In this document: one piece after another, positions 58,934 through 64,000 of the stretch
How the letters are laid out: each line of letters begins with the position of its first letter
Position numbering within the stretch: the first letter of the stretch is position 1
DNA from: a virus
DNA: 64,000 bases
Virus record (IMG/VR): IMGVR_UViG_3300042934_000980
Location: 62,001-126,000 of that record
Strand: one strand, 5' to 3'
Program-made: the position numbers and the translations under genes
The notes under the pieces: generated by a model
Told to the model about the DNA's origin: nothing
Seen by the model: only the letters and a program-made list of their open reading frames with translations
Databases searched by the model: none

Positions 58934-59821
58934 TCAGAGAATAACGCGGTTGGCCGTGTCCATCCCCGAGTAGAAGGTGTCGTACAGCCGGGACGAGATT
59001 TCACCCACGGTGATCTTCCCGTCCCTGTCAAAGTCAAAGCCTTTGTTCTGGGTGTAAGCTTTCAGGTGCGCCGAGTTACTGCGATCGAACAACACCTGGT
59101 CCGCTGACATGCCCACCGCTTTGGGGTAAAAGATGGTCAGGTAGAAGTCTTCCAGCTGGTTGTACTCCTTGCCCCACTTGGCCCACAGGTCAAAGTAGGC
59201 AAAGACTAGGTCCAGCTGATCCATCTGGGACATGCGCTTGATTTGGTCAAGCGTAGTCCCTAGGTCCTTAGCAGCACCGGCCATGAACTGAATCAGGCCG
59301 TAGGCTTGAGAGCCTGCCGCGTTTTGAATGTCAGGACGGAATGTACCGGCCGACTCAAAACACATGCAGGCCATCAGCCAATGCACCGCCTCTGGTGGAT
59401 GGCCCCGCATTTTGACCCACGCGCGGATCTTGGCGATAAACGCCTTGGTCACACGCTTGCTCCAGGCTGCGTCGTAGGCTGGGACGTTGTTCTGGGTGAT
59501 GAACGACATGTAAGGCACGTAGACACCGTTGTAGGTGCCGTTGCCATAAATGCCGTCTACTTTACCAGGATACGTTCCAGCGGCCTTGAGCAGGTCCTGA
59601 ACGCGTCCAATGGCCTGATCCACCTCATCCCCGGCAATCGCCGTGTAGGTGGGTGCAGGCATGGGACGGCCCGTGGTGGAGCGGTGGTGAAAGTCCAGCA
59701 TCTGCTGCAAACCTTTCAACGTGCCAGGACCCATCTTGCCGTCAATACTGCCGGCATACAGCGCCGCTTCCTTCGTCATTACCTGGACGGTCCGTAGCCC
59801 GTTGAGGTTTTTGTACTTCAT
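58934..59821 (-). CDS. Peptidoglycan transglycosylase lysin (phiKZ gp144-like fold)
   Basis: The protein has 295 aa. Two peptidoglycan-binding-type repeats lie in the N-terminal 110 residues (GSIDGKMGPGT near 24-34 and GKVDGIYGNGT near 86-96). The catalytic part has CFESAGTFRPD with candidate Glu156 and AYGLIQFM (173-180), the SLT/lytic transglycosylase pattern. Near the C-terminus DFDRDGKITVGE looks like a calcium-binding EF-hand loop. No signal peptide is present. It could be the lysis enzyme or a virion-associated wall-degrading enzyme. Start overlaps the virion polymerase stop by ATGA. Confidence 0.85.
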   Translation of the reverse strand: MKYKNLNGLRTVQVMTKEAALYAGSIDGKMGPGTLKGLQQMLDFHHRSTTGRPMPAPTYTAIAGDEVDQAIGRVQDLLKAAGTYPGKVDGIYGNGTYNGVYVPYMSFITQNNVPAYDAAWSKRVTKAFIAKIRAWVKMRGHPPEAVHWLMACMCFESAGTFRPDIQNAAGSQAYGLIQFMAGAAKDLGTTLDQIKRMSQMDQLDLVFAYFDLWAKWGKEYNQLEDFYLTIFYPKAVGMSADQVLFDRSNSAHLKAYTQNKGFDFDRDGKITVGEISSRLYDTFYSGMDTANRVIL

Positions 59822-62800
59822 TTGTTGGTACCCCTGTAAATGGCAATGGCTTGGCCAGTAACGGCAATGGTGAGCTCACAGCTGATCAACTTGTTCCGGT
59901 AACTGAGTACCATCCGGTTGAACATCCCTTTCATACTGGATTTGATCAGCACTTCGCGCCCGTCCTCAGTCATGAGTGGCTTGTGCATGATGCTGCCCAC
60001 GGTGCCTTTCATCTGGTTGGCAATCACGTATTTGTCAGCGTTGGTACTGGGGTCCATGGATTCGACGTAGATGGTGATGAACGCCTTGCCCGGAGAGAGC
60101 ATCGGTTTGTTCACGTTAAGCACGGTTGATACCGCACCCTTTTCCACCTCAGAGCCTTCGATACCGGCAAGGCGCTTACGCTTTCTGTCCTGGCTCCCGA
60201 TAAACTTCTCAACGCTTTTGGACATCTGCTCAGGCGTGGCGTTGTAGACCACATCGATGTCGACCACTTTACCGTGGTGATTGGAGCGGATCTGCTTAAT
60301 GCCAATGCGGTTAATGTCCATTGCCAACTCGTTTTCTGTGTAATCGCCCACTAGGTGGGGCTCCTCCACATCGCATAAAATCGAGTCGTAATCAACAGAA
60401 TCACCCACTTTAACCTTAAGGTCGATGTTCCAATCCACATCGATTGCAAAGCGCTTGACCTTGATGAACGGGGTTACCGACTCGTCAGCCAAGGATTTTG
60501 CAATGGCCAAACTGTCCTCGTACACGTCTTGGTCTTCCACCAGCGCAATGCGTGCCATGCGCCCCACTTTCAAGGCCACCTGACCTGGGCAGAACGGGTC
60601 GCGGTCAAACCACTGAACGTCCCAACCCACCACATCACCCTTGCTGAACTTATCCCCCACCTTCAGGTCCGTTACCCGAGTATGACGATGATACTCACCC
60701 GACGCCTCACCGATCTTCAGCCCCAAGGGGTAGGTGTCGGTGGTGCCGTCTTTGTAGGTGATCTTGAGGAACTCATCGCTGACCTCAGTGACCTTACCGT
60801 CTTGCGCCGCCACTTTGCTGTACAGCTCGCTGGTACGGTGCGCCACGATGTTGTCCATCCCGGTGCGCAGGATGTTGGGTACGTAGTTCTGAGCACTGAC
60901 CGCCTGACTGGCCTGAGTCGAGGTAAAGGTACCCCGTTTCGGGTCGTCATGCGCCACGCCGTACATCAGGTTACCAGTGATCGAGGCCAGGCCTGTGTTG
61001 GTCGGCTTTTCGTCCAACGCCAAGTTACCGCGAAAGTCCTTGATGGTCGGGTCAGAGGTGAGGTAGGTCACAAACCCTACTTTACCGCTGTCCTTGTTGG
61101 CTTCCGATACCCGCCCTTTGTAGGTGTCAAGCTGTTGCCGTGCGCGCTTGACCATGGTGATCTCGCTGCGCCCACCGGTGCCACCGAACGTCATCTCCTC
61201 TTGGTCTTTCAACTGGTGAATCGGGTTCACCTCTTCCACCAAGTTCACCGAGGTATCGGTAATGATGTTGAGGATCACCGCTTCAGGGTTGATGTCCAGG
61301 GTGTGCTTGCGCTCACCGCCCTTGTTGCGGTACTGCCGGGTGGACTTGACCAGTTCACGGTACACGTGCCCTGCAAAGCGCTCGTAGCCCACGATCCGCT
61401 GCTCTTCGATCTCCACCTCATGACGAGAGAAGTCGGTCTCCAGCAACTTGACCGCATCGATCAGCAGGTAGTGGAAGTCTTCCGAGTACCCCAGGCGCTT
61501 GAGTTCGTCCTTGGTGATCGGGTCGATGAACAGGTCAAACAGCAGCTTCATTTCCTTGAACTGCTGCGGCCGCACCTTAGGGTCACCCATCAGCGGCACC
61601 CAGATACCCTTCTCGTTCAGATCAGAGCGGCTGAAGTTGCTGATGTTGTTAAGCTTAGGCATGCCCCCAAAGATCAGGCTGGCCAGCTTCTCACGGCGGT
61701 TAAAGATCAGGTACTCATCGTTAAACGCGATGGCGTACTCATCGGGGTCCAGTTTAGGGCGCGTCCCCATGGGCACCGAACGGGTGGTAGCCTTGACCAC
61801 CTTGATCAGCTCGTCGATCCCAAAGTAGTAGCACAGCACCACGCCAATGGGGAACAGGAAACCGCTGATGTTGATGACCGCGTACTCGATCGGGGCTTTG
61901 CTCAAGCTGATCCCCATCAAGCCTTCGACCGTGTTGATCTCCTCGGTGCCCTTGTACAGGTTACCAAAGCTGTCCACCCACAGCGGCTCGCCGTCCTTCA
62001 CCCCCACCAGGAAACTTTCTTTCTTGGTGTACTTCTTAAAGTCGGGGTGTTCTTTGAGCAGCTCATCGATGTTGAAGTTCAAGGTGAGGTCACCCACCTG
62101 GATAAAGCTGAACTTCTTGGCCAGGATGCTGTAGATGCGCGGGGAGACGTAGTCGGGGTTGTACCCAGAACCCAAACTGTAACTGAGGGTTGCCGGTACC
62201 CCGTCTTTGGTTTCCCCACGGGCGCGGATCTGCTTGACCAACCAGAGGGAGTAGTCATCGACCACTTTCTGACTGCGGCTGATCATCAGCTTGCGGTCGT
62301 AGTAGCTGGTCAAGGCCACCTTCACCGGGCTGATCTTGCGGATCGGCAGTTCCATGCGCTGCAGCTGCAAGTGCTGCTTAACCCCGTCCACGGTAAACGT
62401 GGCATCCTTCTGCACCCGTGGCAGGCGAATCTCCGAGGTGCTTTGTGCCCCATTGACCGGATGACGCTGGAACTTGTACACGTCATAACTGCCTTCAACC
62501 CCGTTGACCACCCGGTGTTCCAAGGCCGTCAGACAGATCCCGGCGTTCTGGATCCCGACAAACATACGAGCAATGTCTTTGTGCAGGAACTTCTCAGCGT
62601 ACTCGCGCTTAAGCACTGCAGCGCGGCTGCGCAGCATGCTCTCATCCAACACGGTGATGAAGTTGCCTTCGATCTTACCGTCCAGGCTGTTGAGCTCTTC
62701 AGGGGAGATGGTCATGAACTCGGCCAAGGTTTGACCGTTTTCCATTTCAATCTGCTGATAGCTCATGGCCTTGCGCATGAAGTGCTGCTGCTCGGCGACT

Positions 62801-64000
62801 GTCAAGACGCCGTCACGGGCCCGCTCTTCCAAGGCCAGCTGCACGCCGCTTTCCGGGGTCGGGAAGGCGTTGCGTTTAACCGTGATGTCGGCGGCGGTGG
62901 TTTCAACCTCCAGCAGCTTATCGTCTACGGCGCTGGTCCAATCCCCAGCATCTTCAGGATCAGGTACGTTTGCCGCGTCTCCTTGTCCCGCGTCCAGGTG
63001 TTCGTGATGTCCCGGGTCACCTCGGAGAACATCAGCGAGGCTACCACCAGTGCCAGAATCACCCAGATGCTCAGGCGAGCGAGGAACTTGTCCTTCTTCT
63101 CCGTCACCGGATGCTCGTCTTTGCTTTTGCGCAGCTCCTGTCGATCCTGGAGCCACTTGGCCAGCTTCTTTTTCGTCGCCGGCTTCTCCTCTTCCATCAC
63201 TGCTCTCCTCGGCCAGCTCTTTCTCGGTGGCCACCATACCAGAGAGTGTCATCAAGGCCAGATAAAAACGCTTAGTTACGTTCAGACGTTTGGACGACGA
63301 CATGGGGTGGCTGCCGTCTTTGGGGTTGAGCTCATCAAGCCACTCTTGTAGAGTTTTGACGTTGATCACCAGCGCTTTACTGTTGGCGGTAAAGATCCAG
63401 TGCAAGTCTTCCCGAGCTTGTGGGGTGAGCTTGCCGAATTGACTGTGGGTATAGTCGCCCAGCAAGAAAGCCATCAGGTCCAGCAACCAGTAAGAGTTCT
63501 GTGCCTTGGTTACCCGAATAACCGGGTTAGAAGGAACTGGAAGGCCGTCTTTAAAGCTTCCCACAAACTTTTCATAGTCCACCATCAGGTCGTTGTAGCG
63601 AGGTAGGTTAAGCGGCAGTTCAATACGAACGTACTGCTTGCGTCGGTTGCTACGCTCAGCCTCAACGTTAATCCCCTCGATCAACATGTTGAGGCGGTTG
63701 TAGCTTTGCTCAAACGCCATGAACATGGCAGAGCGCTGCGCCCAGGTCTTTTCGGCCAAGGCGTAGTTCTTCACCACCAACACGTCGGCTTTGTTCCAGA
63801 CGGTGTTGATGTCTTTGGTCCAGTTGTAGGTGTAGTGGCTGGCCCGGTACGCTTGGATGGCTTTACGCGCATCAAAGGTCAGAAGCCGCCCGCTGCCCAA
63901 GACCGGTTGGAACTTGGTCTCAAACTGGATGAAGACATTGTCCGGGCAGTTGGCAATGAACGCCTCAGACGTTGAAGGACCCAAGTCTTCAGCTAACTTG
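59818..64000 (-). CDS. Virion RNA polymerase beta-like subunit (phiKZ gp178-like), N-terminus beyond window
   Basis: The frame is open to the window edge (at least 1394 codons; the true start is outside). The C-terminal 150 residues hold the beta signature: IYVESMDPSTNADKYVIANQ, KGTVGSIMHKP and SSMKGMFNRMVLS correspond to beta K-P-GDKMAGRHGNKG and NPLGVPSRM segments. Many beta-like domains precede it. Residues near 63200-62940 form an odd Gly/Ala/Asp-rich linker that overlaps another frame (see nested gene). The virion enzyme enters with the DNA and transcribes early promoters. Next to head-assembly genes, as expected for a packaged protein. Confidence 0.8.
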   Translation of the reverse strand, partial: KLAEDLGPSTSEAFIANCPDNVFIQFETKFQPVLGSGRLLTFDARKAIQAYRASHYTYNWTKDINTVWNKADVLVVKNYALAEKTWAQRSAMFMAFEQSYNRLNMLIEGINVEAERSNRRKQYVRIELPLNLPRYNDLMVDYEKFVGSFKDGLPVPSNPVIRVTKAQNSYWLLDLMAFLLGDYTHSQFGKLTPQAREDLHWIFTANSKALVINVKTLQEWLDELNPKDGSHPMSSSKRLNVTKRFYLALMTLSGMVATEKELAEESSDGRGEAGDEKEAGQVAPGSTGAAQKQRRASGDGEEGQVPRSPEHLGDSGTGGSLADVLRGDPGHHEHLDAGQGDAANVPDPEDAGDWTSAVDDKLLEVETTAADITVKRNAFPTPESGVQLALEERARDGVLTVAEQQHFMRKAMSYQQIEMENGQTLAEFMTISPEELNSLDGKIEGNFITVLDESMLRSRAAVLKREYAEKFLHKDIARMFVGIQNAGICLTALEHRVVNGVEGSYDVYKFQRHPVNGAQSTSEIRLPRVQKDATFTVDGVKQHLQLQRMELPIRKISPVKVALTSYYDRKLMISRSQKVVDDYSLWLVKQIRARGETKDGVPATLSYSLGSGYNPDYVSPRIYSILAKKFSFIQVGDLTLNFNIDELLKEHPDFKKYTKKESFLVGVKDGEPLWVDSFGNLYKGTEEINTVEGLMGISLSKAPIEYAVINISGFLFPIGVVLCYYFGIDELIKVVKATTRSVPMGTRPKLDPDEYAIAFNDEYLIFNRREKLASLIFGGMPKLNNISNFSRSDLNEKGIWVPLMGDPKVRPQQFKEMKLLFDLFIDPITKDELKRLGYSEDFHYLLIDAVKLLETDFSRHEVEIEEQRIVGYERFAGHVYRELVKSTRQYRNKGGERKHTLDINPEAVILNIITDTSVNLVEEVNPIHQLKDQEEMTFGGTGGRSEITMVKRARQQLDTYKGRVSEANKDSGKVGFVTYLTSDPTIKDFRGNLALDEKPTNTGLASITGNLMYGVAHDDPKRGTFTSTQASQAVSAQNYVPNILRTGMDNIVAHRTSELYSKVAAQDGKVTEVSDEFLKITYKDGTTDTYPLGLKIGEASGEYHRHTRVTDLKVGDKFSKGDVVGWDVQWFDRDPFCPGQVALKVGRMARIALVEDQDVYEDSLAIAKSLADESVTPFIKVKRFAIDVDWNIDLKVKVGDSVDYDSILCDVEEPHLVGDYTENELAMDINRIGIKQIRSNHHGKVVDIDVVYNATPEQMSKSVEKFIGSQDRKRKRLAGIEGSEVEKGAVSTVLNVNKPMLSPGKAFITIYVESMDPSTNADKYVIANQMKGTVGSIMHKPLMTEDGREVLIKSSMKGMFNRMVLSYRNKLISCELTIAVTGQAIAIYRGTNK
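62925..63197 (-). CDS. Nested 90-aa single-pass membrane protein in alternate frame
   Basis: ATG at 63197 with AGGAG seven bases upstream; stop TAG at 62925. It lies wholly inside the polymerase gene but in another minus-strand frame. The first 40 residues are Lys/Glu-rich (KKKLAKWLQDRQELRKSK), followed by one transmembrane helix (LSIWVILALVVASLMF, about 43-58) and a 30-residue tail. The polymerase frame there reads as repetitive Gly/Ala/Asp, which looks like the unselected frame. Could be a holin- or spanin-type protein given the lysin nearby; that is speculation. Confidence 0.6.
   Translation of the reverse strand: MEEEKPATKKKLAKWLQDRQELRKSKDEHPVTEKKDKFLARLSIWVILALVVASLMFSEVTRDITNTWTRDKETRQTYLILKMLGIGPAP

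Follow-up and report, generated by a model that had tools for sequence, protein, structure and literature searches.

Does the virion RNA polymerase gene of a jumbo phage hold a second, complete membrane-protein gene within its own coding sequence, and what role could the product of such a gene have? The question is raised by a locus in the window analyzed here, a stretch of 64,000 nucleotides that covers positions 62001-126000 of a virus genome of 220,495 bp (a 220-kb jumbo phage). The features concerned, in window coordinates, are the following.

59818..63999 (-): virion RNA polymerase beta subunit, the host gene (the part within the window); PHROG 3148, phiKZ gp178 homologue
62926..63198 (-): polymerase linker under the nested gene, with poor conservation and predicted disorder
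62925..63197 (-): nested gene for a predicted 90-aa single-transmembrane (TM) protein; ATG at 63197, TAG stop at 62927-62925; +1 frame relative to the polymerase; frame conserved in relatives
63205..63210 (-): Shine-Dalgarno GAGGAG, 7 nt 5' of the nested ATG; pairing energy -8.9
63024..63086 (-): codons of the predicted TM segment of the nested gene, residues ~38-58, from hydropathy; model helix 44-69 (pLDDT 63, modest)
58934..59821 (-): endolysin, EL188 homologue, directly downstream of the polymerase; no apparent signal peptide

The host gene and the nested frame

The host polymerase matches PHROG 3148 over its full length (E = 0) and is the homologue of phiKZ gp178, which is annotated as a structural head protein. 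Its complete ORF extends beyond the window: it follows another beta-type gene and has its start at genome position 126182. Across the overlap, the polymerase frame encodes an acidic, Gly/Ala/Asp/Arg-rich linker, as had been described. In a model of the polymerase, this linker (the segment of residues ~160-250) showed a pLDDT of 20-26, compared with 60-86 for the flanking domains; a structured polymerase domain at this site, which would speak against a nested gene, was not found. The second frame may be tolerated because the linker is unstructured and acidic. In EL, HHBS8_1, FishSpeaker and PS1 (L002, L005, L021 and L022), the beta gene is split, in several of these with an HNH endonuclease gene between the pieces, and the nested gene is untouched. 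Elsewhere in the host gene, at window positions 61204-61326 (polymerase codons ~891-931), third-position divergence from the relative IMG28608 is very low (0.06-0.10) and the protein is near-identical, unlike the remainder of the polymerase gene; this stretch contains no open alternate frame.

A 90-codon ORF with an ATG and a strong ribosome site had been proposed from the window alone, and both elements were confirmed. The predicted pairing energy of its Shine-Dalgarno site with the anti-Shine-Dalgarno, -8.9 kcal/mol, is better than that at essentially all of the 715 other out-of-frame ATGs in the polymerase genes of the set. As a group, the nested starts have a mean energy of -7.2, against -1.7 at those 715 ATGs (p = 6e-12). 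The site is weak in pEt-SU, PS1, Survivor and Yubaba, in which the nested starts are uncertain; in the first two of these, no clear Shine-Dalgarno precedes the assumed start. When the window polymerase was shuffled synonymously, the +1 frame stayed open in 75% of the shuffles, and openness and hydrophobicity were both reproduced in 0.2%. The evidence from this single genome is only suggestive, too weak to prove a gene; what decides the reality of the nested ORF is its conservation across relatives.

Conservation and selection across relatives

The polymerase locus was gathered from phage records and IMG/VR; two truncated IMG/VR loci, L011 and L042, do not cover the nested region. All clade records readable there were found to contain the nested frame with one TM segment in the same place, so that the lack of conservation that would argue against a gene was not observed. 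The carriers are EL, OBP, RisingSun, Miami, FishSpeaker, the Vibrio and Aeromonas groups, and eight metagenomic phage genomes. The reading frame of the nested ORF is always +1 with respect to the polymerase; the ORF always lies ~850-1,030 nt inside that of the polymerase and always encodes one strongly hydrophobic segment. The nested proteins align on a core like PLWMIILGLVLSLIFTPALRE...ExREKxLILKHL, and a 20-member profile matched the held-out members SXP01 (E = 4.6e-23), L044 (3.1e-15) and L034 (3.7e-24). Nothing comparable was found with this profile at the polymerase of phiKZ, RAY, Goslar, pEa_SNUABM_48, KpGz_1 or LucasX. In a tree of the C-terminal part of the polymerase, presence of the nested gene coincides with one side of a branch with 100/100 support (23/23 versus 0/6). 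This distribution is compatible with one origin of the gene by overprinting; since the tree is unrooted, loss in the ancestor of the other taxa could also account for it.

None of the annotated GenBank records examined contains a CDS for the nested frame, and mass spectrometry of RisingSun lysate was matched to annotated genes (PMC6034870) and is therefore silent on the nested product. In the phage collection, every convincing match to the nested protein falls within a polymerase CDS. No free-standing homologue was detected in PHROGs, Pfam or the phage collection (searched by tblastn with three members of the family), nor in the whole records of the six phages without the nested frame. A search of IMG/VR with a single nested protein returned no match, attributed to the fast divergence of the family, and the polymerase used as bait did find relatives. 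In AH04-like phages (L025:3159-3311; L033, L034 and L036), the nested frame is open ~40 codons farther upstream, and this extension encodes a second very hydrophobic stretch (Kyte-Doolittle ~3), so a longer version with two TM segments may be possible.

Selection on the nested frame was assessed with a resampling test in which, for each aligned codon pair of the overlap, codon pairs encoding the same amino acids are drawn from the remainder of both polymerase genes, or according to codon usage if no such pair exists, and the nested translation is scored; the procedure thus holds polymerase constraint and divergence constant, together with codon usage. For the window and IMG28608, nested identity was 54% versus 25% expected, and the BLOSUM score was 260 versus 37±23 (z = 9.8). 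The corresponding z values were 9.8 for Aphrodite1/PDCC-1, 8.1 for pTD1/VP4B, 6.4 for Yubaba/OBP, 4.9 for window/RisingSun and 4.4 for window/EL; the most distant pairs, Miami/FishSpeaker and pTD1/window, are weak when taken alone (1.6-1.8). In control stretches taken along the rest of the genes in four pairs, z did not exceed 3.8, and 0/316 of the stretches were free of stop codons in both sequences.

The same constraint is visible in the polymerase frame, whose third positions are the second positions of the nested frame. These are frozen: 23 of 91 differ between the window and IMG28608 (61.5 expected), and 5 of 91 between Aphrodite1 and PDCC-1 (46 expected). Polymerase identity within the overlap is 43% versus 76% elsewhere for the former pair, and 66% versus 86% for the latter. 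By site-class counting, nested dNN/dNS was 0.06-0.42 in seven close pairs, and 0.58 and 0.88 in two other pairs, not significantly below 1. Polymerase dNN/dSN in the overlap was near neutral (0.57-1.77). Because the former ratio is low and the latter near neutral, the nested gene is the conserved one in the overlap. The comparison of both frames across relatives that the preliminary description had called for found the nested frame constrained and the polymerase frame evolving nearly neutrally, and bears out its suggestion that the linker is shaped by the nested gene.

Could the frame be open and hydrophobic by chance, because the linker is of low complexity, with no protein made? The shuffles of the window alone, three in four of which keep the frame open, would allow this. 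However, the resampling z values, the frozen third positions and dNN/dNS values below 0.5 all argue against it, as do the strong Shine-Dalgarno sites and their energies, the one TM segment in all members and the lack of a similar case among the 316 control stretches, so a chance ORF was rejected as highly improbable. RNA or DNA elements, such as a structure or binding site, can also conserve nucleotides and might freeze the third positions without any protein. This explanation was rejected on the codon-position pattern of changes and is the most improbable of all: in Aphrodite1/PDCC-1, the nested third (polymerase first) positions vary freely and the nested second positions are fixed (differences 25/12/5), no member has a stop, and the hydrophobic pattern is held at 20-50% identity. 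Thus the frame is kept in relatives, purifying selection exceeds the constraint of the host frame, and an initiation signal is present at the group level, all of which are expected of an overprinted gene. The nested membrane-protein gene that had been proposed is almost certainly genuine, a true overlapping protein-coding gene under purifying selection throughout the EL/RisingSun/OBP/Miami/Vibrio/Aeromonas branch of phiKZ-related jumbo phages.

The nested membrane protein and its possible roles

The nested protein of the window has a highly charged N-terminus and one hydrophobic segment at ~38-57 (Kyte-Doolittle 2.30), in agreement with the earlier reading. The nested proteins are small and basic, and a single hydrophobic segment with a basic N-terminal tail is present in 20/20 of those aligned; the N-terminal tails are mostly 21-44 aa long and Lys/Arg-rich, and the C-terminal tails are helical and 27-64 aa long. 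The structural model is only moderately confident (pLDDT 63), and a fold search with it (Foldseek) gave nothing significant. Across Pfam, PHROGs and Foldseek, the protein has no significant match, holin families included. The product is probably a single-pass inner-membrane protein with its N-terminus inside, an orientation that follows from the basic N-terminal tail by the positive-inside rule. In the proposed mechanism, the polymerase and the nested gene would share one late mRNA, on which ribosomes would initiate internally at the nested Shine-Dalgarno/ATG; the product would insert into the inner membrane in a single pass, its basic N-terminal tail facing the cytoplasm and its short helical C-terminal tail the outside. 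We consider this combination of internal initiation and N-in/C-out insertion likely.

The gene order around the polymerase suggests a role in lysis. As had been stated, a lysin gene directly follows the polymerase, yet ~3.1 kb separate it from the nested ORF upstream. The endolysin contains a peptidoglycan-binding domain and a transglycosylase-like domain and is 47% identical to EL gp188; muralytic activity has been shown biochemically for EL188 and OBPgp279 (PMC3352856). In every complete nested-bearing locus, the polymerase is directly followed by an endolysin gene. The endolysin itself is exchanged at L016, L025, L033, L036 and L054, with the gene position and the nested gene unchanged, and the OBP, AH04 and SXP01 endolysins show no or only a partial match to that of the window. 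No signal peptide is apparent in the enzyme, which should therefore depend on a partner in the membrane. A holin-type or lysis-timing function is the best single guess, since the endolysin is always next and lacks an apparent signal peptide; the nested product would then act in host lysis together with that endolysin. Consistent with this, all 20 aligned members are small proteins with at least one TM segment, and the endolysin is the next annotated gene, although at that distance. Several observations count against a role in lysis: RAY and pEa_SNUABM_48 lack the nested ORF although their polymerase, too, is followed by a related lysin, the nested protein resembles no holin family, and EL188-type enzymes are reported in particles too. 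A rival holin or antiholin candidate is a protein with two TM segments (PHROG 14084; genome 3208-3738, minus strand; L055), which is conserved throughout the clade as well as in RAY and has tandem copies in OBP, PS1 and pEt-SU. The holin-type or lysis-timing assignment is accordingly tentative, possible at somewhat less than even chance. The broader proposal, in which the nested genes would form an unrecognized holin or lysis-trigger family of the whole nucleus-forming jumbo-phage branch, overprinted on the virion polymerase, is more doubtful.

A real nested gene may also serve a different purpose. Its product might act in virion assembly or early infection, as an anchor of the procapsid at the inner membrane or as a minor virion or ejected membrane protein tied to the virion polymerase. 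Such a function is favored by the nature of the host gene, which specifies a subunit of the virion polymerase, by its neighbors, which encode head proteins and the head protease, by the late structural genes around it, and by the assembly of capsids at the membrane in this phage family; however, the immediate next gene is the endolysin, and phiKZ has the same virion biology without the nested ORF. On balance, this role is unlikely. Small single-TM phage proteins are often antiholins or lysis-inhibition or exclusion proteins, so the nested product might be a membrane protein for lysis inhibition or superinfection exclusion, or an antiholin, rather than a hole-former. Lysis inhibition and pseudolysogeny have been reported for these giant phages (PMC7909554) and would fit. 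On the other side, phiKZ shows lysis inhibition without the nested gene, and no known family of exclusion proteins or antiholins proved homologous, which leaves this function more unlikely than one in assembly.

The suggestion that the product is spanin-like did not hold. A spanin role was rejected because the C-terminal tail is short (~30 aa in the window), a lipobox Cys is lacking, and spanins are found elsewhere: EL and OBP have been assigned two-component 'overlapped' spanins in a survey (PMC6139136), and a spanin-like gene is present at another place in this genome. The latter is a TM and coiled-coil gene of PHROG 18283 (genome 148075-148542, minus strand; L060:6075-6542), conserved in the same clade and overlapped from ~148244 by a +1-frame ORF that contains Cys (MRTTFYVLSC...) and continues into a Pro-rich tail. 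The two plausibly represent an unannotated overlapped i-spanin/o-spanin pair.

Significance and comparison with known systems

A conserved nested membrane gene within a multisubunit RNA polymerase gene, present in a whole jumbo-phage branch and without a relative in Pfam or PHROGs, is new as far as the searches reach. No report of it was found in open-licence papers, and within that literature no holin or nested gene is named in the papers on RisingSun/Joad, ZPAH34 and N1M2 or in reviews of jumbo phages and phiKZ. The finding gives phages such as EL, the genome of which was published in 2005, and OBP a conserved protein family that had not been annotated before, and shows that jumbo-phage annotation misses nested genes, in core genes as well. 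As an example of overprinting it is unusually clean, with a full second gene in the disordered linker of a multisubunit RNA polymerase gene, and it provides a concrete, testable holin candidate for phages with no named holin in the papers and records examined. If the lysis role is true, late transcription machinery and production of the lysis trigger would be tied to one mRNA and one DNA stretch.

What resembles this arrangement among known systems? The host gene is like PHROG 3148 and phiKZ gp178 in its full-length match, but the polymerases of phiKZ, RAY and Goslar, unlike it, have no nested frame. Nested phage membrane genes as such are already a known kind, represented by lambda Rz1 in Rz (+1 frame), and embedded spanin genes of this sort are routinely missed by gene callers (PMC6139136). 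The present gene is likewise membrane-targeted and lies wholly inside another gene in the +1 frame; in contrast to Rz1, its host gene encodes an RNA polymerase subunit, its predicted product carries a TM helix but lacks a lipobox, and there is no sign of a spanin-partner relation. Class III holins such as T4 T have a single TM segment and an N-in/C-out topology. The predicted topology of the nested product is the same, and the next gene is an endolysin gene; its outer tail is much shorter than that of T4 T, the two show no homology, and the endolysin is 3.1 kb away. The lysis gene E of phiX174, another nested phage membrane gene of the known kind, encodes a ~90-aa single-TM protein out of frame inside the virion-morphogenesis gene D. 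The present product is likened to E by this architecture, and not by comparison of their sequences. E is a single-gene lysis protein that inhibits cell-wall synthesis, whereas this phage has an endolysin.
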